From: Diphasiastrum complanatum | Lineage: Eukaryota > Streptophyta > Lycopodiopsida > Lycopodiales > Lycopodiaceae | Assembly (NCBI GenBank): GCA_029204225.1 | Contig: MU832121.1 | Coordinates: 1-64,000 of the forward strand | Reading direction: 5' to 3' | Length of the DNA: 64,000 nt | Shown: in pieces, positions 36,471-60,872 of the stretch | Position numbering within the stretch: the first letter of the stretch is position 1 | Layout: each line of letters starts with the position of its first letter | Notes under the pieces: generated by a model | What the model was told of the DNA's origin: nothing | Databases searched by the model: none | The model's input: the letters and a program-made list of their open reading frames with translations, nothing else | Program-made: the position numbers and the translations under genes

Positions 36471-36859
36471 TTATTCCACGTCGAGGCCTGTTGGTGACTA
36501 ATAAGCTTGAGAGGACCCAGACACTCTAATTGAGACATATGGAGTAGTGCATGTACGTGTGATTGATATAGGCAGGAGTTATGCATGAAGAGCTGTGACC
36601 TATTTATAGTTGACCTGCATGGGGATTGCATGGACTCATGCACAGGATCTTACTCTCTATATATTGAGGTAGTGATTATTCCGTCGACGACGTTGGTATA
36701 GGTTACCTGATGAGCTCTTCTTCTCTTGCTATCACATGGCATGGCTTGGGGGCTAGATCCAGGAGGGATCTAGGATTGGTTGGGTGGTTTTGCTCCACAG
36801 TCTCTCTTGTGTTTTCCTATCCTCATCTTAGGAGTGGTTTTCCCTAGTGGTTATTACAT

Positions 36860-36875
36860 TGGTATCAAAGCCCGG
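36860..36875 (+). other. G3 primer-binding site (tRNA-iMet type)
   Basis: TGGTATCAAAGCCCGG, one base after the LTR end CA. The plant initiator tRNA-Met site reads TGGTATCAGAGCCAGG, so 14 of 16 bases agree. Confidence 0.85.
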
Positions 36876-38850
36876 CTAAGATGCGGTTTTGGATGGGATA
36901 GAGACAAGTTCTACATGGATTGGAAGTAAAGCACTTGGAGTTGCATCCCGGATTAGAGTGCTGATTTCTCACGTGGAATAATGAAAGTGGATTCACAAAA
37001 TTCTAGTTGTTGCATGCTCTCCAAAATTGTGATAGAGTGCTCTCCTACAAGGCTGATTTTGGATTTTTGATACTGAGAATTTTTGTGACTTCATTCATAA
37101 TTTCTATTCTTTGAGGAAGCTTTCAATTCGGGTAGAATGAACTGCTAAGCCATATTTGGATGCTTGTCTTTTTGCTAGAATCTATTTGGATTAAGTTTGA
37201 TTGCAAGTTTTAGTCCATAATGTGTTGAATCATGTCTTGTTAATTGGTTTCATTGATAGATTGATTTAAGTCAATTCATCAAGATAATATGAACAACTAA
37301 ATTGTTACTACATGATTCTATGGTCTACATGTTGTGGAGGAAGGGATTTAGCCCAAAATTCTCTTACAGAGCTGCATGAGAAAAGACATTGATGGATGGC
37401 TGTCAAACTAATTTATTGCAAAATTGATATCTAAGCTAACTGTGTGAGCATTCACTTCCTTAGGAAGGATTTTAATCCTACAAAAGTCGTTAAAGCAAAA
37501 CAAATGGTTCTTAAAACTATTTTATGTTTGAAGAACTGCCAAAGGTCGCTTGACAGCAAGTTGTTGCTTGAAGTCTGACTCTTAGGGATTGATTTGCATG
37601 AATTGGTTCTGCAAATTGTTGGCTGATTCTGACGAATCCCCAAGATACTCGGCCAGAGCTACCCAAGAGCACCTCTCACCTTAGACCGAGGAGGTCTTTG
37701 AGAAGACAAGACTGAGAGCCGAGGAATACTATTTAGTAATGACAAGCAAGAATTGTGTAAGCCTCATGGTGAATCCCGGAAGATGGAATGACCATGTAGG
37801 AACTAGTATTTCTAGGCAAAGTAAAAAATGCAAGTAGACTCCTCTTAAGGAAAGTACAGTGAGCCATCTATTGATGGTGACCTCTAGTGGAGAGCATTTT
37901 GTAATTTGTGTAATGTGGAGATGCCACTAGGATGCCACCTAAGGAGCTTTCTTATTTAAGAGACTCCTTATTTGAGAAGAGGAGCTTTTTGTGTATTGTG
38001 TCTACTCCATGCTGAAATGAGAAGAGCCCCCACGAGTTTGGTGCATCCGTTGAGTTCCTTGATCACGCTTGTTTCTTGAGTGATGCATTCATGATCTTGC
38101 CCTTCCCTCCTTTGTGTGTGGTTGTGGATAGTAGAGTGGAATAGTTTTCTTGCTATCCTAGAGTGGAATAGATTTTCTTTCTTGCTTGTGGATTAATGTA
38201 GGAATCAGCATTCATGTAAACTATAGAGGCTAGAAATGTGGTGTAAATCTTGCAGATTCTTGACATTCTAGTTCTTGATGTTCTTGGGATGTCCAATAAT
38301 CAAAAGACTGGTTGGTGTCTTGATTCTTGGACTTCTAAAATGCTATAGATTAGCTTTTTGTTTTGCTTTCTATTAATGTTGTAGATTAATTGGAGTTTCA
38401 ATAGCTGTTCCCTGGTCGTTTTTAGGGTAGGTAGCTATAGGAACTATTGAACGTTCATTTGAGCTGCATGCTGATCTGTAAATGAATTCATGGCTTGCAT
38501 TTCTGATTGAGTGTGAGTGCTTTCAAGAGTGAACGACCCTGGGTTGTTCTCTGACAGGCAGGACAAACATACTACATCGATACCAGTCTCTTTCTGCCTG
38601 ATTTGGGCCTTGAATAAGAATGTTAACTTTCAAGAAAATGCCTAAATGTGCCTGGTGACAGGCAGAAACAGTTCTGAAACTAAGAAGAAGCAAAGAACTA
38701 GTAAACAGATCCTCCTAAGCAGAGGAATCTGTAAACATCAACGTGGTTCTCAATCCGATCAATCAAACACATTCTACATATCTAGATCTACCATCATCTG
38801 CAGTCTGAAGCTTATTGCCTGAAAGTTCTTGAACAGTCTCATCACCAGAA
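36876..38850. other. G3 internal noncoding region
   Basis: Nearly 2 kb with no convincing frame, domain or repeat. Lack of coding sequence is typical of the long leader of a non-autonomous LTR element. Confidence 0.55.
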
Positions 38851-39318
38851 AGTTCTTGAACAGTCTCCTCACACCTCTACGATTGTGTGTTTACCTCTCT
38901 GGTCGACATCCATATGCAACACATGATTCAGACCTGACAGACCTACACACTCCCTCCATTCCTCGTTGACTGAACCGACTGCGCAACCATGACACTTTCA
39001 TCCCCAGACCTGCATTCTCCACACACCTGACCGAATAGCATACACCTTCCTTCCTCCCTGACAAAGCTTCAACCAGAGCTTAATCCACCTCCTATCTGGA
39101 CGTTGTCTTCATCTTCTTCCACTGAGTCCCTGCATCCCTCTTTTCACTGAGTCCTATCCTCTTCGTACTTGTCCGAGTCTCCCTGCATCCGCATTTGCCC
39201 GACTCTTCCTACATATGCATTTGCCCGAGCCTCTCCTTCACCATCTCGCCTGCGTCTCTTCACTCAATCTCGCCCGCGCCTCTCCTTTAGATCTCAACCG
39301 AGCCAGAAGGCTTTCAAA

Positions 39319-39420
39319 TCTCGACTCGGTCTGTGTTTAAAATCTCGACCGGGTCTGTGTTTCAAATCTCGACTCGGTCTGTGTTTAAAATCTCGACCGG
39401 GTCTGTGTTTCAAATCTCGA
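39319..39420 (+). repeat. 24-bp tandem repeat with alternating units
   Basis: TCTCGAC units start exactly at 39319, 39343, 39367, 39391 and 39415. They alternate between two versions (CTCGGTCTGTG with TTTAAAA, and CCGGGTCTGTG with TTTCAAA), giving a 48-bp higher-order unit. Confidence 0.9.
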
Positions 39421-39599
39421 CTGCGCCTACGTAGCCATTTCGACCGCGCCGGCACGTAGCCATCTCGACCGAGGATGGCACATAGAAAACTCGACCGGGT
39501 CCTGCACTTAGTAACTCGACCGAGCCTCTAAGTTGCTCACATATTGACCATGCCTCAAATCACTCAAAACTCAATCGGGTCCTGCCACTTAAAATCTCG

Positions 39600-40290
39600 A
39601 CCGGGTCCGCCAATTTGGAATCTCGATTGCGTCAAAAAAGCATTTTTCGATGCCACATTTTTTCGATACCTCGCTAATTTTTTCGATACTTCATTACTTT
39701 CTAGATGCCTCATTAATTTTTTGAGCCTTCACTTTTTTGAGCTTTGATTATTTTTTCGATACTTCATCAAAATTTTCGATGCCATCAATTTTTCAACCCT
39801 TCACAAATTTGTCGGCCCAGTCTACATTTTTTTTTATTCTTTCTAATTCCACTTCCATTTTCCGACCTGACTCCATTTCTCGAACATCCATTCTTTTTCG
39901 AACATCCATTATTCGCCCATCCAGTTTTTGAGTCATCCATTTTTAGATACTACATTTTTTTCAAGTCATCCAAAATTTTCGATCCACGATTTTCAATCCA
40001 TCAAGTTTTTTGAGTCATAATTTTCGAGTCATCAAATTTTTCAATTCATAGTTTTCGAGTCCTCAATTTTTTTCGAGTCATAGCTTTTTGAGTCACAGTT
40101 TTTTTGAGTTATACTTTTTTTTGAGTCATAGTTTTTTTGAGCCACTCTTTTTTTCAAGTCACTAGTTTTTCGAGTCATCAAATTTTTCGAGTCACCAGTT
40201 TTTCGAGTCATACATTTTTTGAGTCACCAATTTTTGAGTTATCAGTTTTTCGCGCACCGATTTTTTGAGTCATCCATTTTTCGATCCATC
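39600..40290 (+). repeat. Degenerate short repeat of the type TTTTTCGAGTCA
   Basis: Many copies of a T-run followed by CGAGTCA, TGAGTCA or CGATNC, spaced about 15-22 bases. It follows the 24-bp repeat and precedes the gag-like frame; it is probably leader sequence of the same element. Confidence 0.75.
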
Positions 40291-40665
40291 AATTTTTCGA
40301 TACCGCCATTTTTCCAACCTCTGATTCAAATTTCGACCGACCCACCATATTGACGAAGCCTTAAAGCACAGCCAAGAAAAAAAACCAAAAATAAAAAACA
40401 ACAGAAACCCATACAACACCCACAAATACACGACAATACACCATGGACCAACATACTGATCCTGAAATCCCATAAGCTTATCCATACGAAATAAGGTCCC
40501 CTACAGCTGAACAAATTAGACATCATAGGTTCTACCAAATGTGATCCCAAATACACGAACCATCCACAAACCCATTCGCAGAACAAGAGCCTAATAGAGC
40601 CGAGTCTTCACGAGCACAAGCCCATGTTCATGGTGTTGAAGCATCACACGCCAGAACACACATGA

Positions 40666-41049
40666 ATGGAGCTTCTACCACTCACGGAGCTCATATTGAG
40701 AGACGAACACCCAAGTTGGATCTACCAAAGTTTGACGGTAGACCCTCAAAGATTCTTGCAAATCTTTGAGAATGCGTGCGACGTGTACGGCGAAACATCC
40801 TCCGACGCTATGGTCCAACTATTTTTCATGACCATGATCGCTAAAGAACGTGACTGGTTTTTTAACCTCGATCGTGAAGATAAATTGGATTGGTCTAATC
40901 TGAAAGAGTCCTTTATCGAGTGTTTTAAACCATTTCGTTTGATAGAGAGTCCTTTTGTCAAACTGAGTAACATCAAGATGGCAAAAGATGAACGGGTACG
41001 AGACTATATCGAGATATTCAAACACCTCAAAAGTCAAGTACAAGAATAG
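40666..41049 (+). pseudogene. Gag-like fragment in G3
   Basis: A 127-codon frame with LDLPKFDG-like sequence just upstream in another frame, then QIFENACDVYGE, MTMIAKERDWFFNL, WSNLKESFIECFKPF and DERVRDYIEIFKHLKSQV, the pattern of the Retrotrans_gag capsid domain. It ends at a TAG. No zinc knuckle, protease or polymerase follows in the next 5 kb. It could be the only coding remnant of G3 or a separate insertion. Confidence 0.7.
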
Positions 41050-42844
41050 CCCTCCGAACAGATGCTCATCATTTGGTTTTTAGTCGACCAATCTCCTTCT
41101 TCAACCAGCCTCTTGCCATACTTCTGCACCCATTCTCATGCCTATCGCCCACACCATCTACCATTGTCACCACCACCACCATCCTTCCTTCCATCTATTT
41201 GTTTATCATCAATTCACTGTTCTTCTAAGAAATCTCCAGTTTTTTATAGTCTTACCGAAGTAGCTGATAGATTATTGCAAATGTCTTACGAAGACCAACT
41301 ACTACCTACACTGGTTGGTCAGCCAGAAAAGAAGACCTAAGTAGTAGGCAAAGCAGCTAGAAGAAATAAAGAGAAAGATCCAAGAAGCTGAGGAGGAAAG
41401 GACGAAACTTAAGCAACAAATGAGTCAGATTGATCTTGATAAAAAGAAACTCTCTGGAGCAATGATAGCTGAATCCCCTCCTATGAAGCCCGAAGAGATC
41501 CTAAAGTAATGGATCGAAAGAAAGAGCTGCAGAAAAAGAAAGATGAAGACAACCGTAAATCTGCAAAATAAAATGAGCTCTTCACCCAATGAGTGGTGGT
41601 CGAAGCTCGACATTACAAGAGTCTAAGACTGCAACTGAAGAACTATCAGTTCCTTCATCCTTCCACCAAGCTGTCGGACGTTTCTCACAGCAGGTGATGC
41701 TTGAGCGCTGAGGTAGCTAGGCGTTTTTGTGACCGATTCTTTCTGCTTGGAGGCTGCAGCTGGAATGCTATGGGGATGATCCTGCAAATTCATTCTTTGT
41801 AGGCTTGTTGGCAGCTGGTGCAGAGTGGGCTGTTTGCAATTTGTTTTGCATGAAAGTCGTTGAATGGAGAACAGGATAAAACCGAGATGTAGAGCTGTTT
41901 TAGTGCATTTTTTCGGCTGATTATGGTGCGCTTTCCACCTCTTCTTTCTTAGAGGGAGGTCGGATTGCATCTGGTGATCAATTGGTGGGTAGTAGTGCCT
42001 CGATGCTCTCTCTTTCCCTTGTTCTTTCTGGCTTTGTGGTGTCTCCTTTCCCTCTTTGATGGCGGCTATAGTGCGACTATGGCAGGAGCTGCCTTTCTTC
42101 TTATTTCAAAAATAAATCTTAGGGTTTTTTTTGGAATGAAGGCATGTGTGACATTTTGGGGGTTTGTGTTTTTGCCTTGTGCATGACTTTTTTGGTGCTT
42201 ATTATTGATTTGGTGCGTGTTACCGATAGGACAACAGTTTGAGAAATTGCATGAATGTCCAATCGATGCTTTGCATGCCGGTTGACAGAGGTTTTTATTA
42301 AGGCTTGACAAGTGCTGATTTTCGGCTTCAAATTTGTTTCGGAATCAATTCAAAAATTTTAGTTACAAGCACCCAGTTAGAGGAACTTTGGTTTCTTGGT
42401 GCTCGGTAGTCAATGCTGTAACCTTGTCGTTTTGAAAGTAGCTTCCCGGTCTTGGCAAGAGGAATTTACTTTTTTCTTCTCCATGGGCAATATGCATGCT
42501 TGAGGCCTTATCAACTTGACAGTCACCTGTAAGCCTAGTTTTTTGAAAACTTATTACTGTTGTTTTTGTGTCAAGCTGTAATAATTGGTCAAAATTTTAT
42601 TTAACTGATCTTGATAAAATAATGGTAGTGGTTTGGTTCTCCAGGCATGTATCCAGTTAATGGAGATTTTGGGGACCCTAGTACTATACTTTTTACCGAT
42701 TTAACTTTGGAGTAAGATTACTCCCAGTAAATTGAGTTAAATGGTATTTTTTATGGTTCTTCCTTATCAACTTCGGTGTTGCACCAATAGGTTATCCTAA
42801 AAGATTTTGATCTTTAGGATTGAGAAAATTAAAGCCTTTGAAAA
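41050..42844. other. G3 internal region, no recognised coding sequence
   Basis: A proline-rich frame follows the gag stop briefly (41062-41340) and a lysine-rich stretch lies near 41340-41580; neither matches a family. The rest appears noncoding up to the TRIM target site at 42845. Confidence 0.5.
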
Positions 42845-42849
42845 CTTGT

Positions 42850-42984
42850 CATTAGAAAGTGTCAAGGCTATAGCCCTTGCACAACACTCTAGGAACACAA
42901 ATGGACGGGTAGCTCAGTGGTAGAGCACCCCACCAGAATGGGGGAGGTCCCGACCACACACACCAAGTGTAAAAACTTTTTACA
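42850..42984 (+). repeat. TRIM 5' LTR
   Basis: Starts CATTAG, derived from TGTTGG in the other LTR by three transitions; ends TTTTTACA. It lacks 7 bases of the B-box region that the 3' LTR keeps. Confidence 0.85.
42903..42950 (+). other. tRNA-like sequence in the 5' LTR
   Basis: GGACGGG, then the A-box TAGCTCAGTGGTAGAGCA (42910-42927) with a perfect GCTC/GAGC D-stem, and a CCCCA/TGGGG anticodon-like stem with a 6-base loop. The 7-base gap removes the B-box, so this copy is not an intact Pol III promoter. Confidence 0.75.
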
Positions 42985-43001
42985 TGGTATCAAAGCCATG
43001 G
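42985..43001 (+). other. TRIM primer-binding site (tRNA-iMet)
   Basis: TGGTATCAAAGCCATGG begins right at the LTR end. The plant tRNA-iMet site is TGGTATCAGAGCCAGG; the match is close, with one substitution and one extra T. Confidence 0.85.
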
Positions 43002-43033
43002 TTGTGGGCGGTAGCTAAAAAGGGCTATGCCTT

Positions 43034-43042
43034 GAGGGAGAG
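43034..43042 (+). other. TRIM polypurine tract
   Basis: GAGGGAGAG directly before the 3' LTR start TGTTGG. Confidence 0.85.
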
Positions 43043-43184
43043 TGTTGGAAAGTGTTAAGGCTATAGCCCTTGCACAACACTCTACGAACACAAATGGACG
43101 GGTAGCTCAGTGGTAGAGCACCCCACCAAAATGGGGGAGATCCTAGGTTCCAACCACACATACCAAGTGTAAAAACTTTTCATA
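43043..43184 (+). repeat. TRIM 3' LTR
   Basis: Starts TGTTGG and ends CATA (CA-type end mutated). It is followed by the CTTGT target duplication. Confidence 0.85.
43096..43160 (+). other. tRNA-like sequence in the 3' LTR with A- and B-boxes
   Basis: GGACGGG acceptor-like start (43096-43102), A-box TAGCTCAGTGGTAGAGCA (43103-43120), D-stem GCTC/GAGC, anticodon-like stem CCCCA/TGGGG with a 6-base loop (43121-43136), and B-box GGTTCCAACC (43146-43155; consensus GGTTCGANNCC). The T-arm pairs poorly and no 3' acceptor strand complements GGACGGG, so it is not a working tRNA gene but may still bind TFIIIC. Confidence 0.75.
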
Positions 43185-43189
43185 CTTGT

Positions 43190-46130
43190 TAAAGTGAATA
43201 AATGGATTAAAAGTCATATTATTTGGAGGTAGTTCTATATTTGACAAATTTTTATGTATCGAATATCGTACAGGACTATTTGGATCCAAATTTTATGGAT
43301 TTCCCATTAGGATCTGACAACTTTAACGAGGTAATACTTAAGCTAGTGTCGTTAAAAAGGAAGCAGCCTAGCATTTACTTGTGTCTAAGGAGTTTTCAGT
43401 GTTTAGGGTATTTGGAGAGGTTATGAGATATAGATCCGGATCCCTCAATGGTATTTCATAAATTCCAAATCACAAACCCTTAAAAGCTATTTCTCTTTTA
43501 AATTAAACCTCTACTTTTTGGAAATTTCTTAAATGCAAGGCAATTGGATTGAGATTCATATAATTTCTTTTAGTGTGGAATTAGGTCCCTAAGGAATTTT
43601 AAAGTTATATGAATTCATACTTCCATTTCAGTTGTGAATATAGCTCAGCATCAATTGATGTTTTAATTGATTAAGAGGAATTTAGACTTCCTAAGCCAAA
43701 TTGATTATCTCTATTTGATAGTTGATTATTAAGAGTAATATTTCTATCACTCAGGATAAGATATTTTATGATTTTAAGGAAAAAGTCTAGTTTGTAATAG
43801 TATTGGATACTCATTACTGACTTTTTTGAATCTTTGATCTCTTATACGTTGTCTCTTGAGAACTTTTTAATCTAAATAATGGAATTTCTTTTAAAAGGGG
43901 GAAAAGAAAATGATAGGAATAAGACTTTCATGGGATCAACCAGTTGCATAGATTTCTTTGGTGGAATCCAGTTTGTGTGCAATCGTGGAACTATCCAGTG
44001 GGAATAGAGGAAATCTCTAGTGATTGTTTTGAATAATCTGGAACTAGAGGAGTTTTGGGGATAAGGAGCTGTGTGATATTCATGAATATGGGAAATGTTG
44101 GTAAAGATTAAATTAAGATTCATTGATTGGCTACCAAGACCATTTAGTTATGGATTGGATCAATGGAATAAAGCTTTAATTTGAACATTTTGTCCAAAGA
44201 TGTATGTATAAGTCAACCTAATCTTAGTTTGTGCACTAAGATCTGGAGTAGTTTGATTGTTTGAAGGAATTTTGTTGGTAAAAGTATGATGGTTGGAAAA
44301 CTCGTGATGTGAAATTATTCACTTCAGATATTTTCCAGATATGTTATTTCCTCAAGAGAAATAGAAACTTTTGTAGCTGACTTACAAAATTTTGAATGAG
44401 ATATGTGAGTAACATATGCGGATTTTGGAGGAATCTGCCAGGTAAGGACATATGTGTTTATGTACTGGGTCATAGTGAGATTATTCTCATATGTGCACGA
44501 GTAATCTTGTTTGGATCTACTATGTATTCCTGGTTACTGAGGTTATTTGGTGCACTTAACCTAGTTGTTACATAGACATATGATCAAGTATTGTGTTTGA
44601 CAATTACTTGCAGAGTTGACGGATCTGTTCTGATAAGATCTATGGGTTAACTTATAAATGATTTGGTTATGGATCTAAATGTGGTGTTGTACATGTACAA
44701 TTAAGAGCTGCACCTAGACATTTAAGATTTCTAAATCATGAGCAATTAACTTGAGTAGTTGATTTACTCCTGTGGAAGTTAATTGGTGAAATGAACAGTG
44801 TGAAGAGAATTCATTAGAAACTGTTTGTTTTGTGTGTATTGCCTGTAAGACACATAATTTATGAGTCATTTGGATTCATTACAAAATTGTGTGCATAGGA
44901 TACTGAAATCTTGGATGAGTATTTTCTAGTGGAGGAATATACTTAACACATTAGTGATTGTATCCCTATGAGCTCAATTGGATACTGGATCCTAATGGTT
45001 CCAAGAATGGTAAATTGAATTTTGGAAATTTAGCAGAACTTTGTAATCTCTAGATGTTGTTCTAAGAGATTGTATAAAGTTTATTTTGTTAAAGATGAAT
45101 GTTATAATGGTCTTTAATTACTTGGATGATTGTAGAATTTGGAACTTATAATCTGGTTAAGAATCGGATTAGAGGAATATTCCTAGAATCTAGTTATTTT
45201 CCTTGTGGAAGAGATTTCAGAATAGTTCTTATATATTTTTTGAGTTGTATGTTGTGCATATACTCCAATATCTTTTAATGATTAAGTATGGTTTTAGAAT
45301 CCTGAGAATTATGATTGACAAATCATAAGATTCTAAATGTTTATGATTAACGGATCATAAATTGATGCTTAAAGGTCATTTGAAGATTTTAAGAAAATGT
45401 GAGAATTCTTAAGAGGATGAGTAATTCTTGATCAATTGGGTGAGTTAAGGATTTAGATCTGTTAGTTGAATTCTAAATTTCTTTACTCCAGCACATACTT
45501 GAGATTGTGTGGATCTCACAGACATTTTCATTAAGTAATTGCTAACTTATGAAGAATTTGCTTACTTTACAGATTGTAGTCTATAAGTGCTTGTGTGCAA
45601 AGTTCAATCTATATCTCCAGGTTAATAGGAGACAGATAAATCTATTAAGATATGGATAGTTGCTGATTTCTTGCATATGATGCTAGAAATGGGGCTGTTA
45701 ACTCATTAGATTAACTGTAGTACTCTGGTTTGAGTTATAAATGTCTGAGACTTGACGGATCTCCTAGAGATTTTAGATGACTGAATTGAGGTATTTTAGA
45801 ATATTTAGATATTCTAAGAATATTTGTACCAAGAAGCATTATTTTCTACAAGATATTGAAATGGAATTTCTCCAGTTTTTGGATTTGCTTTCTGAAATAA
45901 AGTAAGATCACCCAGTGTTTCATGTAATTGAAATTACATGAAGGTGATGAATTTTTATTTTGGAGTAGATCAATCCATTTGGAAGATTTATAGCTTAGTG
46001 TATCTTTTGGAATCTGAGTACTTATTCAGATGGAAAGATCAGACTAAGAATAATGATTCATGGATAAGATTTGAAAGCGTAAGGGATAATTTCATGTTTT
46101 CTTTTTCCCATTCTGAGGACAGAACCTGTT
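43190..46130. other. G3 internal noncoding region after the TRIM
   Basis: About 2.9 kb of AT-rich sequence with no frame above 70 codons until 45938-46249, which overlaps the LTR start and resembles nothing. No polymerase or integrase motif was found on either strand. Confidence 0.55.
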
Positions 46131-46144
46131 TAAGAGAGGAAGAA
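46131..46144 (+). other. G3 polypurine tract
   Basis: AAGAGAGGAAAGAA directly before TGTTACGG at 46145. Confidence 0.85.
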
Positions 46145-46530
46145 TGTTACGGCCATATTCCGCTAAGGAAATGGAATAGTCCTAATATGGTAGATCGACC
46201 CTCCAATGTTCGAGTTTACTGGTCACGCCTAGATTTTATTCCACATTGAGGCTTGTTGGTGACTCATAAGCTTGAGAGGACCTAGACACTCTAATTGAGA
46301 CATATGGAGTAGTGCATGTACGTGTGATTGATATAGGCAGGAGTTATGCACGAAGAGCTATGACCTATTTATAGTTGACCTACATGGGGATTGCATGGAC
46401 TCATGCACATGATCCTACTCTCTATATATTGAGGTAGTGATTATTCCGTCGACGACTTTGGTATAGGTTACCTAATGAGCTCGTCTCCTCTTGCTATCAC
46501 ATGGCATGGCTTGGGGGCTAGATCTAGGAG
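46145..46530 (+). repeat. G3 3' LTR, interrupted by G1
   Basis: Matches the 5' LTR from TGTTACGGCC to GATCTAGGAG. The last roughly 90 LTR bases seen in the 5' copy (36769-36858) are missing because G1 starts at 46531; they may lie beyond the right edge of the window. Confidence 0.85.
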
Positions 46531-48099: not shown

Positions 48100-48924
<825 letters not shown>

Positions 48925-49673: not shown

Positions 49674-50326
49674 TGTGAAAAACTCAGATCCAAAAGATGC
49701 TAAAGTTTCATAAAGATCTTGGCCATGGAAGTTATGCACATCTAGATTGAAAAAATGATAGAAATTGTGATGTTAAGCATACTAAACATCAACTAAACAT
49801 CAAAATCTGATCATAAGCTTCCACAAACAGAAACTTGCTGTCCCTGTCCGTACTTCAGAGCCTACAACCTGCATTTCACACGTGTGAAGCCATAGCAACA
49901 AAGAAATCACAATTCTAGTGGCTAGAATGCAAGATATGAACAAAAAAGTGAGAGAGAAGAAGATGGACCTTCAAAGAGCATAACATTCATTCAATAGAAT
50001 GAAAATGAGATGTGTACATACTCGTGGAGATGGCTATTTATAGCAGCCATAGTGCCTCTTGGCCACTTGTCTTATGATAGGCTAAAATTGGGGTCCAATA
50101 GGATTCACCCATATACCTAGAAATTTGGTCAAATAGGAATGCACCAAATTATGAGCCAATAGAAGAGCTCCACACTCGACCTCCTCTAATTAATGTGACC
50201 TCAAAAGTAGTGTACACATACTTTGGGCCTCTACATACATGTATGAACCTATCTCTAACTTTTATTTGGCCATAGGCCTACAAAATCTCAAGTTAGGAAA
50301 ATACTACTAGTTGACAATTTTTCACA
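49674..50326 (-). repeat. Copia 3' LTR (653 bp)
   Basis: TGTGAAAAAC to TTTTTCACA, with perfect short inverted ends. The TATTTATAGCAGCC near 50034 read in either direction is promoter-like but untested. Confidence 0.95.
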
Positions 50327-53300
50327 CTCCCTCTTCAACTAGTTTTAGCATAGATTTAGAAAGTACACCAAGACTTGTTCTATGCTTGAAAAATAAGTCC
50401 TTTCCCAATGCTTTGGTAAAGATATCAGCCACACATTCCTTTGATGGGACATGTTCAAGCTTGATCTCTTTTGCCAACACTTGTTCTCTCACAAAATGGT
50501 AAGCCACCTCGATATGTTTGCTCCTTGCATGGAAAACCGGATTGCTTGCTAGACTTTGGGCTGAAAGGTTGTCACAAAAGATGATTGGACTCTCTGAAAA
50601 ATCCAGCAAATGAAGCTCCATAATCATCCTCTTGATCCACACCATCTCCTTTGTGCATGATGTCAAAGCTTTGTACTCGGCCTCACTAGAAGAAAGTGAT
50701 ATAGTTGCTTGTTTCTTCGACATCCATGAGATAGCTCCATCACCTATGAAAATAGCATGTGCATTTATGGATTTTCTATCCATAAGGTCTCCTGCAAAAT
50801 CTGAATCTGAAAAACCAAATAAGTTAGGTGATGAGCCTCTATAAACAATGCCAAAATCTTTTGTTCCCGAGATGTATCTCAAGATCCTCTTTCCTAGTTT
50901 CCAATGTTCTATGCTAGGATCTTGCATGAATTGGCTTAATTTACCAACACAATAAGATAAATCAGGTCTTGTGATGGTTAGATATATAAGAGAACCTATT
51001 AGCTTCCTATAGAGAGTAATGTCCTCGAAGGATCTTTCATTACCTCTTATAGTTAGCTTTACATGTGATTCCATAGGTGTATCAATAGGATTTGCATCTA
51101 CCATATGAAATCTATTGAGAATAGAAATAGCATACTTCTCTTGTGAAATAAAAGTGATTTGAGAAGTTCTAATTACTTCTATTCCTAAGATATAGCTCAA
51201 AAGACCAAGATCATGCACTTCAAATTCCTTTTTTAGTGCTTTCTTGATATCTTCTATATCTTCCTTGTTCCCTCCACTTAAAATAATGTCATCCACATAA
51301 ATTAGAAGGATTGTAACATCATTAGCACTAATTCTAAAGTAAAGTGAATGATCATACTCACTCATAGTGAAGTTTTGAGAAAGTAGAAAAGAGTTAAGCC
51401 TAGCATACCAACTCCTTGGTGCTTGCTTAAGACCATACAAACTTTTTTGTAGAAAACACACATGATTAGGCTTGCTATGAGAAACATAGCTCTCGGGTTG
51501 CTCCATGTAGACTTCCTCTTCAAGATCACCATTCAAGAAAGCATTAGAAATGTCTAATTGCCAAAGATCCCATCCATAAAGAGTTGCAAGGGAAATGATT
51601 ACTCTTATGCTCACCATCTTTGCCACGGGTGCAAAGGTTTCCTCATAGTCAATGCCATGCTCTTGAGCATAACCTTTAGCCACCAACCTTGCCTTCAACT
51701 TGTTGATAGATCCATCTTGATTTGTCTTTACCTTGAAGATCCATTTGCATCCAATTGCACTTTTGCCCTTTGGAAGCTCCACCAATCTCCATGTGTTGTT
51801 CTTCATAAGTGCTTCAAACTCAAGATCCATTGCTTGGATCCATTCCTCTTCTTGCCTTGCTTCATCTACACATGAAGGTACATCAAAAGAAGTTAGGAAA
51901 GCATAGTTGGATCCATCCACCACTTGCTTACCTTTGCCATCATAAGTGAGCCTTGAGGGTTTCACTTTATGCCTTGGAGTTCTCCTTGGAATTTGACTTG
52001 AAGAGGCTTCTTCAACATCCACATCCAATGTGTCATCAACTCCATTGTCATCAAGCACATTAGTTGCAACAACACCATCATCACTTGAAACAACTTTTGG
52101 AATGTTACCTTCATAAAAAATGACATCCCTACTTGTGAACACTTTCTTGATTGAAGGAACATAAATCCTATATGCTTTGCTTACTTCACTATAACCAACA
52201 AAAATGCCCTTTCTTGAAGATGGATCCTCCTTAGTTCTATCATCAAGAGTAATGTTGAAGTAGCAAATGCATCCAAAAGTTCTTAGAAACTTGACATTAG
52301 GCTTCGTACCAAACAAAGCTTCAAAAGGGGTTTTTCCTTCCAATACAACACTTGGCCATCTATTGCATAGGAAATTTGCACACAACAAAGCATCACTCCA
52401 AAAAGGTTTAGGAAGATTAGCATTCAATCTCATTGCCTTTGCACTCTCACACAAGGTTCTATTCTTCCTCTCGGCCACTCCATTTTGTTGTGGTGTTCTT
52501 GGACATGTGTACTCCCTCTTGATCCCATGCTCATCGCAAAAGGCTTTGAATTTGTTAGAAATGTATTCACCACCATTGTCGCTCCTCAAGCATTTGATTT
52601 TGGTTGTAAATTGAGTCTCAATAGCAACTTTGAACTTGACAAACACATCAAACACCTCATCCTTGCTCTTTAGTAGATAAACCCAACAAAATCTACTAAA
52701 ATCATCAATGAAAGTTACATACATCTTAGCACCTCCATTGCTAATTGTAGTAACACCATGAATATCCGAATGCAAGAGAGAAAAAGGCATCTTAGATCTA
52801 GATATAGATCTAGTATATGGCAATCTATGTGATTTAGACAAAGCACATTCTTCACAAACATGATTCAAGCAAGTAAGAGACTTGGGAAGTCCCCTTACTA
52901 CCTCCTTTTTGGCTATTACCTCCAAGGCCTTGTAGTTGAGATGTCCCATCCTTTTATGCCATACCTCTTGAATTGACATTTGTTCATTTGCCATGCATCC
53001 AACTTGGTTAGCAACAACACATGCATCAAGCTTGAACAATTTCCCTTGCCTTTTCCCTTTTGCAATGATACTACACCCCTTTTTGATCAAGCAAGCATCA
53101 CCATCAAACTCAACTTTGAATCCTTTGTCAAGCATTTGGCTTACACTAAGTAAGTTCTTGGTAATGGATGGAATGAGCAAAACATCTTTCAATTCTATAT
53201 TCCTATTTGTAGAAAGTGAAATAGGAATTGTGCCAATCCCCTTGATTGCACACTCACCATCATTTGCGGTATAGATTACCTTCCTATCACCATCAAATGC

Positions 53301-54272
53301 CATTAAAGATGAAAAATACTCTTTATGATATGTCATATGAGAAGTGGCTCCACTATCAATCCACCAAGGATCAATGTCTCCATGATTAGCCAACAAGCAA
53401 GATGACATAACAAAAGCATCATTTGAAAGAAGCTCATCCCCACCCTCATCAATAGTTAGATTGGTTTGCTTTTCCCCTTGATCCCTCTTTTTCTTAAAAC
53501 AATCACTAGCGAAATGCCCTTTGACTCCACAATAGAAACATTTTAGCTTAGATCTATCCTTCTTTTTGCCAAAAGTAGAGTGCTCACCTTGGTCTTGCCC
53601 TTTAGACCAATTGCTTTTACCTTTGCCCTTGAACTTGCCTTTAGAGAACATTGCCTCCTCTTCTCCTCCTTGAGATGTAGAAGATGCTCCCACTCTTGCT
53701 TGCAACCTGAATTCTTCAGCCAACAAGACCTCTTGCAAGTCTCCAACACTTGGTAAACATTTTTGGATAGCATAACTTTGAACAAGATTAGCATGATCAT
53801 CCAACAAACCATTGAGAATCACTTGAACAAGCTCCTCATTATTTATGCCATCATTAATGCATGCTAACTCATCATTCAATGCTTTAACTCTCAAAACAAA
53901 AGCATGTCCATTCTCACTCTTCTTTTGCATACAAGAAAAGATTTGCCTTCTTAAAGTCAACACTCTAGAAGTAGACTTGGATTCATAAACCTTCTTCAAG
54001 GCTTCCCAAGCTTCACTAGATGATGTGCACTTACCAACCTCTTTGATAAGCTCATTTGTCACATTCATCTTGATCATGTGAAGGGCTTTCTTTGCCCTCT
54101 TGTCATACCTCAATTGTTCTTGAGGTGCCAAAGGTCTCTCCTCCACACCTACAACAATATCCATCAACTCATTCATCTCAAGCAAAGACTCCATCCTTAC
54201 TTTCCAAGTAGAATAGTTGAGGGAGGTAAGCCTATCATTGCTTTCCAACATGTAGCCTCCATTTGTAGCCAT
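50322..54272 (-). CDS. Copia gag-pol polyprotein, 1316 aa, intact
   Basis: Retrotransposon polyprotein, cleaved into capsid, protease, integrase, RT and RNase H. Seen in order: gag (LNYSTWKVRMESLL near residue 18), zinc knuckle C245-C248-H253-C258, protease D306-S-G in WWIDSGATSHMT, integrase zinc residues H439/H444 and C473/C476, catalytic D503, D565 and E601, RT from about 840 (KARLVAKGY, FAPVAKMVSIR, SLYGLKQAPRSWY) with YVDD at 992-995, and RNase H with D1156 and SSSEAEY around 1194-1200. No stop or frameshift; the length is usual for the family. The ATG at 54272 lies 600 bases after the primer site. The stop TGA is formed by the first bases of the 3' LTR. The family acts in cytoplasmic particles and the nucleus. 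Confidence 0.97.
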   Translation of the reverse strand: MATNGGYMLESNDRLTSLNYSTWKVRMESLLEMNELMDIVVGVEERPLAPQEQLRYDKRAKKALHMIKMNVTNELIKEVGKCTSSSEAWEALKKVYESKSTSRVLTLRRQIFSCMQKKSENGHAFVLRVKALNDELACINDGINNEELVQVILNGLLDDHANLVQSYAIQKCLPSVGDLQEVLLAEEFRLQARVGASSTSQGGEEEAMFSKGKFKGKGKSNWSKGQDQGEHSTFGKKKDRSKLKCFYCGVKGHFASDCFKKKRDQGEKQTNLTIDEGGDELLSNDAFVMSSCLLANHGDIDPWWIDSGATSHMTYHKEYFSSLMAFDGDRKVIYTANDGECAIKGIGTIPISLSTNRNIELKDVLLIPSITKNLLSVSQMLDKGFKVEFDGDACLIKKGCSIIAKGKRQGKLFKLDACVVANQVGCMANEQMSIQEVWHKRMGHLNYKALEVIAKKEVVRGLPKSLTCLNHVCEECALSKSHRLPYTRSISRSKMPFSLLHSDIHGVTTISNGGAKMYVTFIDDFSRFCWVYLLKSKDEVFDVFVKFKVAIETQFTTKIKCLRSDNGGEYISNKFKAFCDEHGIKREYTCPRTPQQNGVAERKNRTLCESAKAMRLNANLPKPFWSDALLCANFLCNRWPSVVLEGKTPFEALFGTKPNVKFLRTFGCICYFNITLDDRTKEDPSSRKGIFVGYSEVSKAYRIYVPSIKKVFTSRDVIFYEGNIPKVVSSDDGVVATNVLDDNGVDDTLDVDVEEASSSQIPRRTPRHKVKPSRLTYDGKGKQVVDGSNYAFLTSFDVPSCVDEARQEEEWIQAMDLEFEALMKNNTWRLVELPKGKSAIGCKWIFKVKTNQDGSINKLKARLVAKGYAQEHGIDYEETFAPVAKMVSIRVIISLATLYGWDLWQLDISNAFLNGDLEEEVYMEQPESYVSHSKPNHVCFLQKSLYGLKQAPRSWYARLNSFLLSQNFTMSEYDHSLYFRISANDVTILLIYVDDIILSGGNKEDIEDIKKALKKEFEVHDLGLLSYILGIEVIRTSQITFISQEKYAISILNRFHMVDANPIDTPMESHVKLTIRGNERSFEDITLYRKLIGSLIYLTITRPDLSYCVGKLSQFMQDPSIEHWKLGKRILRYISGTKDFGIVYRGSSPNLFGFSDSDFAGDLMDRKSINAHAIFIGDGAISWMSKKQATISLSSSEAEYKALTSCTKEMVWIKRMIMELHLLDFSESPIIFCDNLSAQSLASNPVFHARSKHIEVAYHFVREQVLAKEIKLEHVPSKECVADIFTKALGKDLFFKHRTSLGVLSKSMLKLVEEGV
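50327..50336 (-). other. Copia polypurine tract
   Basis: GAAGAGGGAG on the element strand, directly before the 3' LTR and inside the coding frame. Confidence 0.9.
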
Positions 54273-54869
54273 GTTGCAATGATTGATCTCTGATCTTTGA
54301 CCTGTTCCAATGCACTAAGCACTCTCTTGAATCAACAAATGAAACACAAGAAGAAATCACAAAGATTTGGAACCTAAAACCTTACTTTTTCTCTCTTTTC
54401 CTCACTTTTTCCTTAATTTTAGCCACTAGTTTTATGATTTCTTGATCAAACCAAGACCAAACCTCAATATACTTGCTTTTCCCTCACTCCTAAGATTGAA
54501 ATACACTCTTGAATCATTCAGCAAACTGAAAATCAGAGGGTTACATCAATTTTGAAGTTTTTGACATGAAGAAGCAAGAAATTGAATCAAAAAACTATAT
54601 GCTAGAATGGAAAACTAATAGGATCTTGTTGGATCTTGCATCTCCCTCTTTCCAAAACAATTTTTGTCTCCTTATTCTGATAAGTACAGAGGGAATTCGC
54701 CCTACTTCAATTGAAATGCATACAAATGATGTTTTGATCACAAAGATCCAATTTCTACACATAAATCAACAAGATTTTTAGCTAGAAACTTGATTGGAAT
54801 GCTACAAAAGCAAACTCGCCCACAAATCTCTTCTAAATCTGGCAAAACCTGCACATTTGGCCGCCTAAT
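54273..54869 (-). other. Copia untranslated leader
   Basis: About 600 bases between primer site and polyprotein start, with no coding region. Confidence 0.7.
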
Positions 54870-54881
54870 GCTCTGATACCA
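54870..54881 (-). other. Copia primer-binding site (tRNA-iMet)
   Basis: TGGTATCAGAGC on the element strand, a 12-base perfect match to the initiator tRNA site, abutting the 5' LTR. Confidence 0.95.
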
Positions 54882-55534
54882 TGTGAAAAACTCAGATCCA
54901 AAAGATGCTAAAGTTTCATAAAGATCTTGGCCATGGAAGTTATGCACATCTAGATTGAAAAAATGATAGAAATTGTGATGTTAAGCATACTAAACATCAA
55001 CTAAACATCAAAATCTGATCATAAGCTTCCACAAACAGAAACTTGCTGTCCCTGTCCGTACTTCAGAGCGTACAACCTGCATTTCACACGTGTGAAGCCA
55101 TAGCAACAAAGAAATCACAATTCTAGTGGCTAGAATGCAAGATATGAACAAAAAAGTGAGAGAGAAGAAGATGGACCTTCAAAGAGCATAACATTCATTC
55201 AATAGAATGAAAATGAGATGTGTACATACTCGTGGAGATGGCTATTTATAGCAGCCATAGTGCCTCTTGGCCACTTGTCTTATGATAGGCTAAACTTGGG
55301 GTCCAATAGGATTCACCCATATACCTAGAAATTTGGTCAAATAGGAATGCACCAAATTATGAGCCAATAGAAGAGCTCCACACTCGACCTCCTCTAATTA
55401 ATGTGACCTCAAAAGTAGTGTACACATACTTTGGGCCTCTACATACATGTATGAACCTATCTCTAACTTTTATTTGGCCATAGGCCTACAAAATCTCAAG
55501 TTAGGAAAATACTACTAGTTGACAATTTTTCACA
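54882..55534 (-). repeat. Copia 5' LTR (653 bp)
   Basis: Same length as the 3' LTR with two differences by eye. Followed on the plus strand by the CTCAG target duplication. Confidence 0.95.
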
Positions 55535-58180: not shown

Positions 58181-59275
58181 GACAATGTGAGTTATGCAAG
58201 AGTTCTTGATGGGCAGATTTGTCAGGATCTTGAAAAAACTCAGTTTTTTTGGCATGTTTTGGCACGTTTTCTTAGATATTTCTAGATCTAACCATTGGAT
58301 CTTCACAAAAATTTCACAGTGGCCAGATCTTGGTTATATCTACTTAAGAAACTCTTTGCAAAGGTTACTTCCTAGCAGGTCTCAAAAACTCATAGAAAAA
58401 GTGCATTTTTTTGGTGTTTTTTTGCAAAATTTTAAGATTTTCTGAGAACAAACCATTGCAGATTGGTAAGAACTTGTATCTCAGTTAGATTCACCTACTC
58501 ACTAAGCTGCAAGAGCTACTTCTCAAGGAAACTCAAAAAATCTTGAAAAAAGTGCATTTTGTTGGGGTGTTTTTGTAAGATTTTAAGATTTTCTGGGAAA
58601 AAACCCTCGCAGATTGGCATAAACTTGTATCTTAGTCAGATTCAGCTGCCTACCAAGCTGCAAGAGTTACTTCCCAAGGAAAATCAAGAAATCTTGAAAA
58701 AAGTGCATTTTTTTGGGGTTTCTTTTGCAAAATTTTAAGATTTTCTGGTAACAAACCCTTTCAGACTAATATGCACTTGTATCTCAGTCAGAGCTGCTCA
58801 CCAAGATGCAAGGGTTACTTATCATGGAAACTCAAAAAATCTTGAAAAAAGTGTATTTTTTTGGGGTTGTTTCGCAAAATTTTAAGATTTTCTGGGAACA
58901 AACCCTCACAGACTAACATGCCATTGTATCTTAGTCAGATTCAGCTGTTCACCAGTTACTTCCCAAGGAAACTCAAAAAATCTTTAAAAAAGTGCATTTT
59001 TTTGGTGTTTTTTTTGCAAAATTTTAGGATTTTCTGGCAAAAAACCCTTGCAGACTGGTATGCACTTGTATCTTAGTCAGATTCAGCTGCTCACCAAGCT
59101 GCAAGAGTTACTTCCCTAGGAAACTCAAAAAATCTTGAAAAAATTGTATTTTTTGGGGGTTTTTTGGCCAAATTTTGAGATTTTCTGGGAACTAATCTTT
59201 GCAAGCTGGTATGTGCTTGTATCTGAGTCAGATCCACTTGCTTACCAAGCTGCGAGAGTTACTTCCCAGGGAAAC
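58180..59275 (-). repeat. About seven tandem copies of a roughly 150-bp repeat in the G2 leader
   Basis: A repeated block containing 'aaactcaaaaaatcttgaa', an AAGTGCATTTTTT run, TTTTAAGATTTTCTGG and 'agctgcaagagttacttcc'. The AAGTGCATTTT landmark recurs near 58229 (degenerate), 58401, 58552, 58703, 58851, 58993 and 59141, a period of about 142-152 bases. It lies between the primer site and the gag-like protein. Confidence 0.85.
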
Positions 59276-59575
59276 TAAAAAATTTGTTGTCTGAGAAGGT
59301 TCTAGGCCACTTTTTGCTCTTGGGAACCTTCACAGGGGCACTTTTTTTGGGATCTTACTCTCACTGACTTCTCTGTGTCCTCGTATCAGTGAGATGGAAC
59401 TTCAGAGAGCTCTGTGAAGATTACTTCCCAAGGAAACTCAAAAATTTGTTGTTTGAGAAGGTTCTAGGCCATTTTTTGCTGTTGGGAACCTTCACAGGGG
59501 CACTTTTTTTGGGATCTAACTCTCGCAGACTTCTTTGTGTGGAACTTCAGAGAGCTCTGCGAAGGTTAGTTTTGA
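59276..59575 (-). repeat. Two copies of a roughly 165-bp repeat in the G2 leader
   Basis: A block with 'aatttgttgtctgagaagg', 'ttctaggccactttttgct' and 'gggaaccttcacaggggca' appears at about 59279 and again at about 59445, related to but distinct from the 150-bp array. Confidence 0.8.

Positions 59576-60097: not shown

Positions 60098-60872
<775 letters not shown>

Follow-up and report, generated by a model that had tools for sequence, protein, structure and literature searches.

Does a 335-bp stretch in the genome of the clubmoss Diphasiastrum complanatum represent a miniature LTR retrotransposon (TRIM) which carries a tRNA-type promoter in its long terminal repeats (LTRs), and, if so, is it a member of a class already described? 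The question is raised by positions 42850-43184 of the window, i.e. the whole 64,000-nucleotide stretch of contig MU832121.1 analysed here, where an element of the LTR type without coding capacity is found. The initial annotation of this locus had proposed a class parallel to Cassandra, whose members might be transcribed by Pol III from a captured tRNA or SINE promoter. As a structure, a TRIM with a tRNA-like Pol III promoter in its LTRs is supported by the sequences of a family in the same genome. The novelty of the class did not hold: it has been in print since 2024 as Helenus, and the name TRIMp3 has been proposed for a group uniting Helenus with Cassandra (PMC10886601). The reading favoured here, which we consider probable with considerable reserve, is that of an old, partly decayed Helenus-type TRIM of D. 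complanatum, in whose intact relatives the tRNA-like block would act as an internal Pol III promoter.

Anatomy of the window copy

The element is made up of the following features, given with strand and basis.

42845..42849, no strand: left copy of the target site duplication, CTTGT (direct reading and alignment of the flanks)
42850..42984, + strand: 5' LTR, 135 bp, first bases CA for TG, 18-base deletion within the T-arm and B-box region relative to the 153-bp family LTR (reading, LTR alignment, family form)
42869..42872, + strand: TATA of the 5' LTR, 29 bases upstream of CAA (reading; putative role, by likeness to plant tRNA genes)
42898..42900, + strand: CAA of the 5' LTR, directly upstream of the tRNA-like block (reading; putative role, like a plant tRNA start)
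42903..42956, + strand: tRNA-like block of the 5' LTR, 28.2 bits with Rfam RF00005, cut-off 29 (Rfam scan)
42910..42920, + strand: A box TAGCTCAGTGG of the 5' LTR (reading)
42946..42955, + strand: remnant of the B-box site of the 5' LTR, where a deletion joins GGTCC to CGACC (reading, comparison with relatives)
42977..42981, + strand: T5 run near the end of the 5' LTR, possible Pol III terminator (reading)
42985..43042, + strand: interior, 58 bp (reading, alignment)
42985..42998, + strand: primer binding site (PBS) for tRNA-iMet, 13/14 bases (reading, comparison with genomic tRNA-Met)
43020..43071, + strand: hairpin, 16-bp stem of 43020-43035 with 43055-43071, junction of polypurine tract and LTR in the loop region (fold, z -2.9)
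43034..43042, + strand: polypurine tract (PPT) GAGGGAGAG, abutting the 3' LTR (reading; same place in relatives)
43043..43184, + strand: 3' LTR, 142 bp, last bases TA for CA, 11-base deletion within the T-arm and B-box region (reading, LTR alignment)
43062..43065, + strand: TATA of the 3' LTR (reading)
43091..43093, + strand: CAA of the 3' LTR, upstream of the tRNA-like block (reading)
43096..43156, + strand: tRNA-like block of the 3' LTR, 20.7 bits with RF00005 (Rfam scan)
43103..43113, + strand: A box TAGCTCAGTGG of the 3' LTR (reading)
43146..43155, + strand: damaged B box GGTTCCAACC of the 3' LTR (reading, comparison with relatives)
43177..43180, + strand: T4 run near the end of the 3' LTR (reading)
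43185..43189, no strand: right copy of the target site duplication, CTTGT (direct reading and alignment of the flanks)

Two LTRs, a total length of 335 bp and CTTGT target site duplications (TSDs), all claimed in the initial annotation, were recovered by reading and by alignment of the LTRs. The tRNA-iMet primer site at the LTR edge was likewise correctly recognised: in the window copy it reads TGGTATCAAAGCCA and agrees in 13 of 14 bases with the reverse complement of the genomic tRNA-Met(CAT) plus CCA (reference gene at L166 of the same genome), and the common family form, TGGTATCAGAGCCA, agrees in all 14. The reported polypurine tract does lie directly before the 3' LTR, and the A box described for both LTRs is contained in a 17-base stretch, TAGCTCAGTGGTAGAGC, exact in each, for which 0.22 matches at up to three mismatches are expected by chance in the window. 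The B box read in the 3' LTR stood only in part: GGTTC is kept there, but GGTTCCAACC is the leftover of an 11-base deletion at a place where relatives have GGTTCAATCCC, and GGTTC has been lost from the 5' LTR. The T-arm deletions differ between the two LTRs (18 bases in the 5' LTR vs 11 in the 3' LTR, with lengths of 135 and 142 bp vs 153 bp in the family), and because of them both B boxes of the window copy are broken; the A boxes are intact in both LTRs.

The outer ends are also decayed, with CA at the start and TA at the end, where relatives have the form TGTTAG...TTTTCACA. In alignment, the LTR pair is identical at 124 of 135 bases, with one 7-base gap, and this divergence (K2P 0.088) indicates that the insertion is not recent. 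No tRNA was reported in the window by ARAGORN, or by Rfam at the gathering threshold. A copy identical to the window element is present at C4:74335966-74336306 of the same genome, and the window contig, C603, may represent either an allele or a duplicate of C4.

Further repeats were observed in the window. A Copia element on the minus strand (49674-55534), with a single 1330-aa open frame, LTRs that are 99.7% identical and CTGAG flanks, appears from its sequence to be young and intact, and it shares the end grammar of the small element, namely TTTTTCACA, TGGTATCAGAGC, AGAGGGAG and a 5-bp TSD, here CTGAG. Direct repeats of 295 bp, 95% identical, were found at 36471-46530, with TGGTATCAAAGCC near the first of them, and the small element may be nested in a longer LTR element whose primer site is similar. 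An 825-bp repeat with long (CT)n runs occurs at 48100-48924 and 60098-60872 (93% identical), and overlapping direct repeats with a period of about 150 bp, 77-82% identical, occupy 58357-59571.

A multicopy family in the clubmoss genome

The window element is one copy of a large genomic family. A search of its own genome (1.74 Gb) with the whole element, in which 40 of 565 candidates were scored, returned at least 68 element matches. The LTR search recommended in the initial annotation was run with 27 bases of the LTR start region as the pattern: allowing one mismatch, the pattern occurs at 592 places, against 0 in the reversed control, and it has no match in IMG/VR. Two samples were drawn from these searches. 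The first consists of 40 stretches around the best element matches, among them one without an element (L048). The second consists of 64 loci from the first 100 pattern places listed, on C1-C5, with 8 loci already in the first sample not recounted and 5 places on C1 left out; it is unbiased for the T-arm, but selected for an exact LTR start region. The common family LTR measures 153 bp and the interior about 73 bp, with TGGTATCAGAGCCATGGTTGTGG and CTTGAGGGGGAG as its first and last bases.

Target duplications of 5 bp, for which the initial annotation had advised looking in other copies, are found in both samples. In the first, 31 stretches with both outer LTR ends (window included), minus 7 repeats, left 24 non-redundant loci, of which 10 have perfect TSDs and 12 agree in at least 4 of 5 bases; shuffled pairing gave means of 0.45 and 0.69, with maxima of 4 and 5. 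Among the 18 complete multi-LTR loci of the second sample, TSDs are perfect in 5 and agree in at least 4 of 5 bases in 8 (shuffled means 0.5 and 0.84, maxima 4 and 4), and two of the five perfect loci, L098 and L099, have TCTCT in common and are perhaps a single duplicated locus. In these multi-LTR loci the LTR pairs are 88-98% identical. Single-LTR loci (n=16, with an amplified cluster reduced to one) include one perfect TSD and two with agreement in at least 4 of 5 bases.

Tandem arrangement of the LTRs is common. Across the 64 loci of the second sample, one LTR match is present in 33, two or more in 31 and three or more in 6. The longest array of the family has nine LTRs (L012); a six-LTR array and a three-LTR array (L015, L017) have perfect TSDs at their outer ends. 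Other arrangements were also noted, such as family LTRs near each other in inverted orientation (L022, L038). Element copies with a truncated 5' LTR and shared flanks recur at L062-L074 (C1, 94.6-99.8 Mb), with similar ones at L093, L094 and L097 on C3, and these copies are apparently passengers of a larger repeat, which is amplified chiefly within 5 Mb of C1. At L033, L085 and L176, and also at L175, L083 and L080, the family LTR is followed by the PBS and then by a different interior, in some loci with another PPT, e.g. CTTGAGTGGGGGTGTTG; we read these as chimeras with sister TRIM families, or as recombinants.

The junction between PPT and LTR is enclosed by a 16-bp stem, as the interior end and the LTR start are inverted copies of each other. 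In four family copies this hairpin folds at z -2.9 to -3.8; over 19 aligned junctions, 95.9% of the stem cells pair vs 20-55% when slid, and at least 10 pairs close over the junction in 74 of 82 distinct junctions. Since no stem pair has changed on both sides in the 19 aligned junctions, the hairpin is to be taken as conserved sequence and not as proven structure. It may shield or present the PPT, or mark full-length RNA. The window Copia folds into a similar but weaker hairpin (z -1.06), matched by 57 of 1000 arm shuffles, and a PPT hairpin is absent from another LTR element of the window.

The tRNA-like block and the Pol III question

In a scan of 20 loci with the Rfam tRNA model, 17 loci gave matches above cut-off, 28 in all (best 52.1 bits); of 32 loci examined with ARAGORN, 10 yielded tRNA calls, most of them lacking a proper anticodon. 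Motif counts cover 68 second-sample LTRs, a set in which one amplified cluster is reduced from 11 LTRs to one. The A box TAGCTCAGTGG is recognisable in 65/68 LTRs, with at most one change in 52/68; the B box GGTTCAATCC follows with at most one change in 50 of the 65 A-box LTRs, at an A-to-B distance of 43 bases in 47 of those 50. A CAA lies within 10 bases upstream in 50/65 LTRs, and a TATA further upstream in 59/65, but the search pattern itself contains TATA; in plant tRNA genes CAA is often present upstream, and TATA less often (PMC11700998). A run of T4 or longer is present within the final 16 bases in 56/65 LTRs, and T4 elsewhere after the A box in 0/65.

A 41-base block pattern is present at 445 genome places (reversed control 0). 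All 15 of the places fetched lie inside a family LTR, whose start region is complete in 12 cases and truncated or deleted in the other 3. Copies of the tRNA-like part outside LTRs, named in the initial annotation as the opposing outcome, did not appear among them, and on this ground the block is not a free SINE. No clear parent tRNA emerged from a comparison with 49 ARAGORN calls from the 63 best-scoring tRNA loci of the same genome, the best alignments being with tRNA-Cys and tRNA-Thr at 62-68% identity, and the RNA fold of the block is no stabler than shuffles in four copies (z -0.2 to -1.0).

Both boxes, which the initial annotation had proposed to check for conservation, are present in most of the LTRs counted. 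Outside CG and CHG sites, mismatch amounts to 2.7% in the A and B boxes, 3.2% in the rest of the block and 5.5% in the LTR outside it; LTR positions 42-153 stand at 4.1% vs 2.7% for the boxes (p 0.08). The boxes are not clearly better conserved than the remainder of the block, and column variation shows no box selection; the block as a unit is conserved somewhat better than the remaining LTR. Selection on the promoter boxes had been indicated by an earlier test (p 0.02-0.03), which was discounted because positions decaying through CHG methylation had not been accounted for; the signal vanished once CG/CHG decay was removed. The T-arm is an indel hotspot: among the second-sample deletions which span 3 bases or more, 10 of 18 fall at LTR positions 98-119. 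Within the first sample, an intact 3' LTR is often paired with a 5' LTR which has its own T-arm deletion. This pattern is suspect, as the query behind that sample was the window element, from which the T-arm is itself missing. The 5'-LTR deletion as a strand-transfer scar was considered and rejected: LTRs of the second sample, whose search pattern lies outside the T-arm, are mostly intact, and their deletions have no 5' bias.

A second tRNA-LTR family, partly in tandem, adjoins a first-family copy at L040 (C3:4649400-4650600, positions 1-435). Its LTR-like unit is ~145 bp long and recurs every 260 bases, the repeats being 98% identical; it reads TGTTGGAATATC...TTTCTAACA, then TGGTATCAGAGCC. 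The tRNA-like blocks score 47.3 and 50.0 bits with the tRNA model, carry a canonical GGTTCGAATCC and are 78-79% identical to the block of the first family. Neither a T4 at the LTR end nor a PPT-type fold was seen in this second family.

In intact relatives of the window copy, the tRNA-like block would serve as an internal Pol III promoter through its A and B boxes, with TATA and CAA upstream, and RNA would start near the 5' end of the block in the 5' LTR. Transcripts not terminated at the T-run which closes this LTR would continue across the interior and end within the 3' LTR; because of this start and stop, the repeated R region would correspond approximately to the tRNA-like block. First-strand synthesis would be primed by tRNA-iMet at the PBS and second-strand synthesis by the PPT, while an autonomous element, probably a Copia, would provide reverse transcriptase and integrase and cut the 5-bp TSDs; the LTR arrays would be made afterwards by unequal recombination. 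No autonomous partner with a matching interior was found in the analysis, nor was a long interior shared with the window Copia. As box conservation shows no selection, it is from anatomy and class that Pol III transcription of the family is considered plausible. The T-run at the LTR end predicts that most Pol III transcripts would stop before the PBS, giving mostly short RNAs, and therefore that the template RNA would need read-through. The T4 run is also a plain part of the Copia LTR end, and the LTR TATA could serve Pol II equally.

This last point leads to an ordinary Pol II TRIM, in which transcription would be driven through Pol II by the LTR TATA, and the block would be a passenger, the relic of a tRNA or SINE which inserted into the founder LTR. 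We regard this account as doubtful, though serious enough to be kept in view. It accommodates the TATA at a Pol II-compatible place in 59/65 LTRs (counted with a search pattern which itself contains TATA), box positions without special conservation, a T-run ahead of the PBS which hinders Pol III, the concentration of 10/18 larger deletions in the T-arm and the lack of an intact B box in many copies, the window copy among them. It does not readily explain why the block has been kept tRNA-like, with its 43-base spacing, in most of the second sample, why a block of this kind, complete with canonical B box, recurs in a second LTR family, or why the same boxes are conserved in Helenus of other kingdoms (PMC10886601).

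Two further explanations concern the nature of the element itself. A tRNA-derived SINE family, with the look of LTRs arising from tandem copies, would agree with a multicopy tRNA-like unit and with the many tandem arrays; however, the 15/15 sampled block places within an LTR, together with PBS, PPT, TG/CA ends and 5-bp TSDs, make it very improbable. A chance assembly of motifs could be suspected from the window copy, with its marginal tRNA scores of 28.2 and 20.7 bits, but faced with 592 LTR-pattern and 445 block-pattern places vs 0 and 0 in reversed controls its probability is negligible.

Comparison with known element classes

With tRNA-derived SINEs the clubmoss element shares a tRNA-like head with A and B boxes, whereas it has no LINE-type tail and instead two LTRs, a PBS and a PPT. 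SMART and other plant TRIMs, including the tandemly arrayed ones, resemble it in size, PBS and PPT, 5-bp TSDs and frequent arrays (PMC3281118, PMC4717578, PMC4528315), tandemly arrayed TRIMs being common in plants (PMC4717578); the word tRNA is absent from the available text of these three papers. Cassandra is closer, since it has a Pol III promoter derived from a small RNA in TRIM LTRs, and tandem arrays, but that promoter is 5S-derived, and in the clubmoss family it is tRNA-derived (PMC7215508, PMC10853983); no 5S family was found in an Rfam scan of the window element and 20 loci. For Cassandra, Pol III transcription has been demonstrated, as stated in PMC10886601 and PMC12786077.

The closest likeness is to Helenus (Kojima 2024), TRIMs with tRNA-derived LTRs known from fungi, animals and one plant, Selaginella moellendorffii (PMC10886601). 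Elements of this class are TRIMs below 1000 bp with a tRNA-derived block of A and B boxes in the LTRs and PBS and PPT between them; plant and fungal members have 5-bp TSDs, and some have solo LTRs and tandem arrays, all as in the clubmoss family (PMC10886601). The Helenus A box (TRGCY and YGG) and B box (GGTTC) are both found in the family forms TAGCTCAGTGG and GGTTCAATCC, while the window copy has the A box in both LTRs and, of the B box, GGTTC in the 3' LTR alone. Since every Helenus-defining feature tested is present at family level, the most careful filing is as a new Helenus-type plant family, likened to Helenus-1_SMo by description only. The latter, the only plant family listed, has an LTR of 120 bp and an interior of 85 bp (PMC10886601), close in size to the 153 and about 73 bp of the clubmoss family, and the hosts belong to different orders of Lycopodiopsida, Selaginellales and Lycopodiales respectively. 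The clubmoss family has a full primer site for the 3' end of tRNA-iMet, which few fungal Helenus use, and a PPT hairpin, for which the available text of PMC10886601 has no mention in Helenus. Pol III transcription is described as unvalidated for Helenus by the same paper, and no second paper describing tRNA-LTR TRIMs was found in the open-licence literature.

A broader proposal, which we consider unlikely, would make lycophyte Helenus one old lineage predating the split of Lycopodiales and Selaginellales, with the T-run as a switch: RNAs would be mostly short, tRNA-like and PBS-less, and a rare read-through RNA, marked in its 3' part by the PPT hairpin, would be the template of retrotransposition. 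A multicopy family with near-intact members is a place to test whether Pol III makes the genomic RNA of the class, and it carries a warning for tRNA annotation, as matches to tRNA models in such genomes can be retrotransposon LTRs. Furthermore, the printed plant record of Helenus consists of a single species (PMC10886601, Table 1), and D. complanatum extends it to another lycophyte, whose genome contains two tRNA-LTR families.
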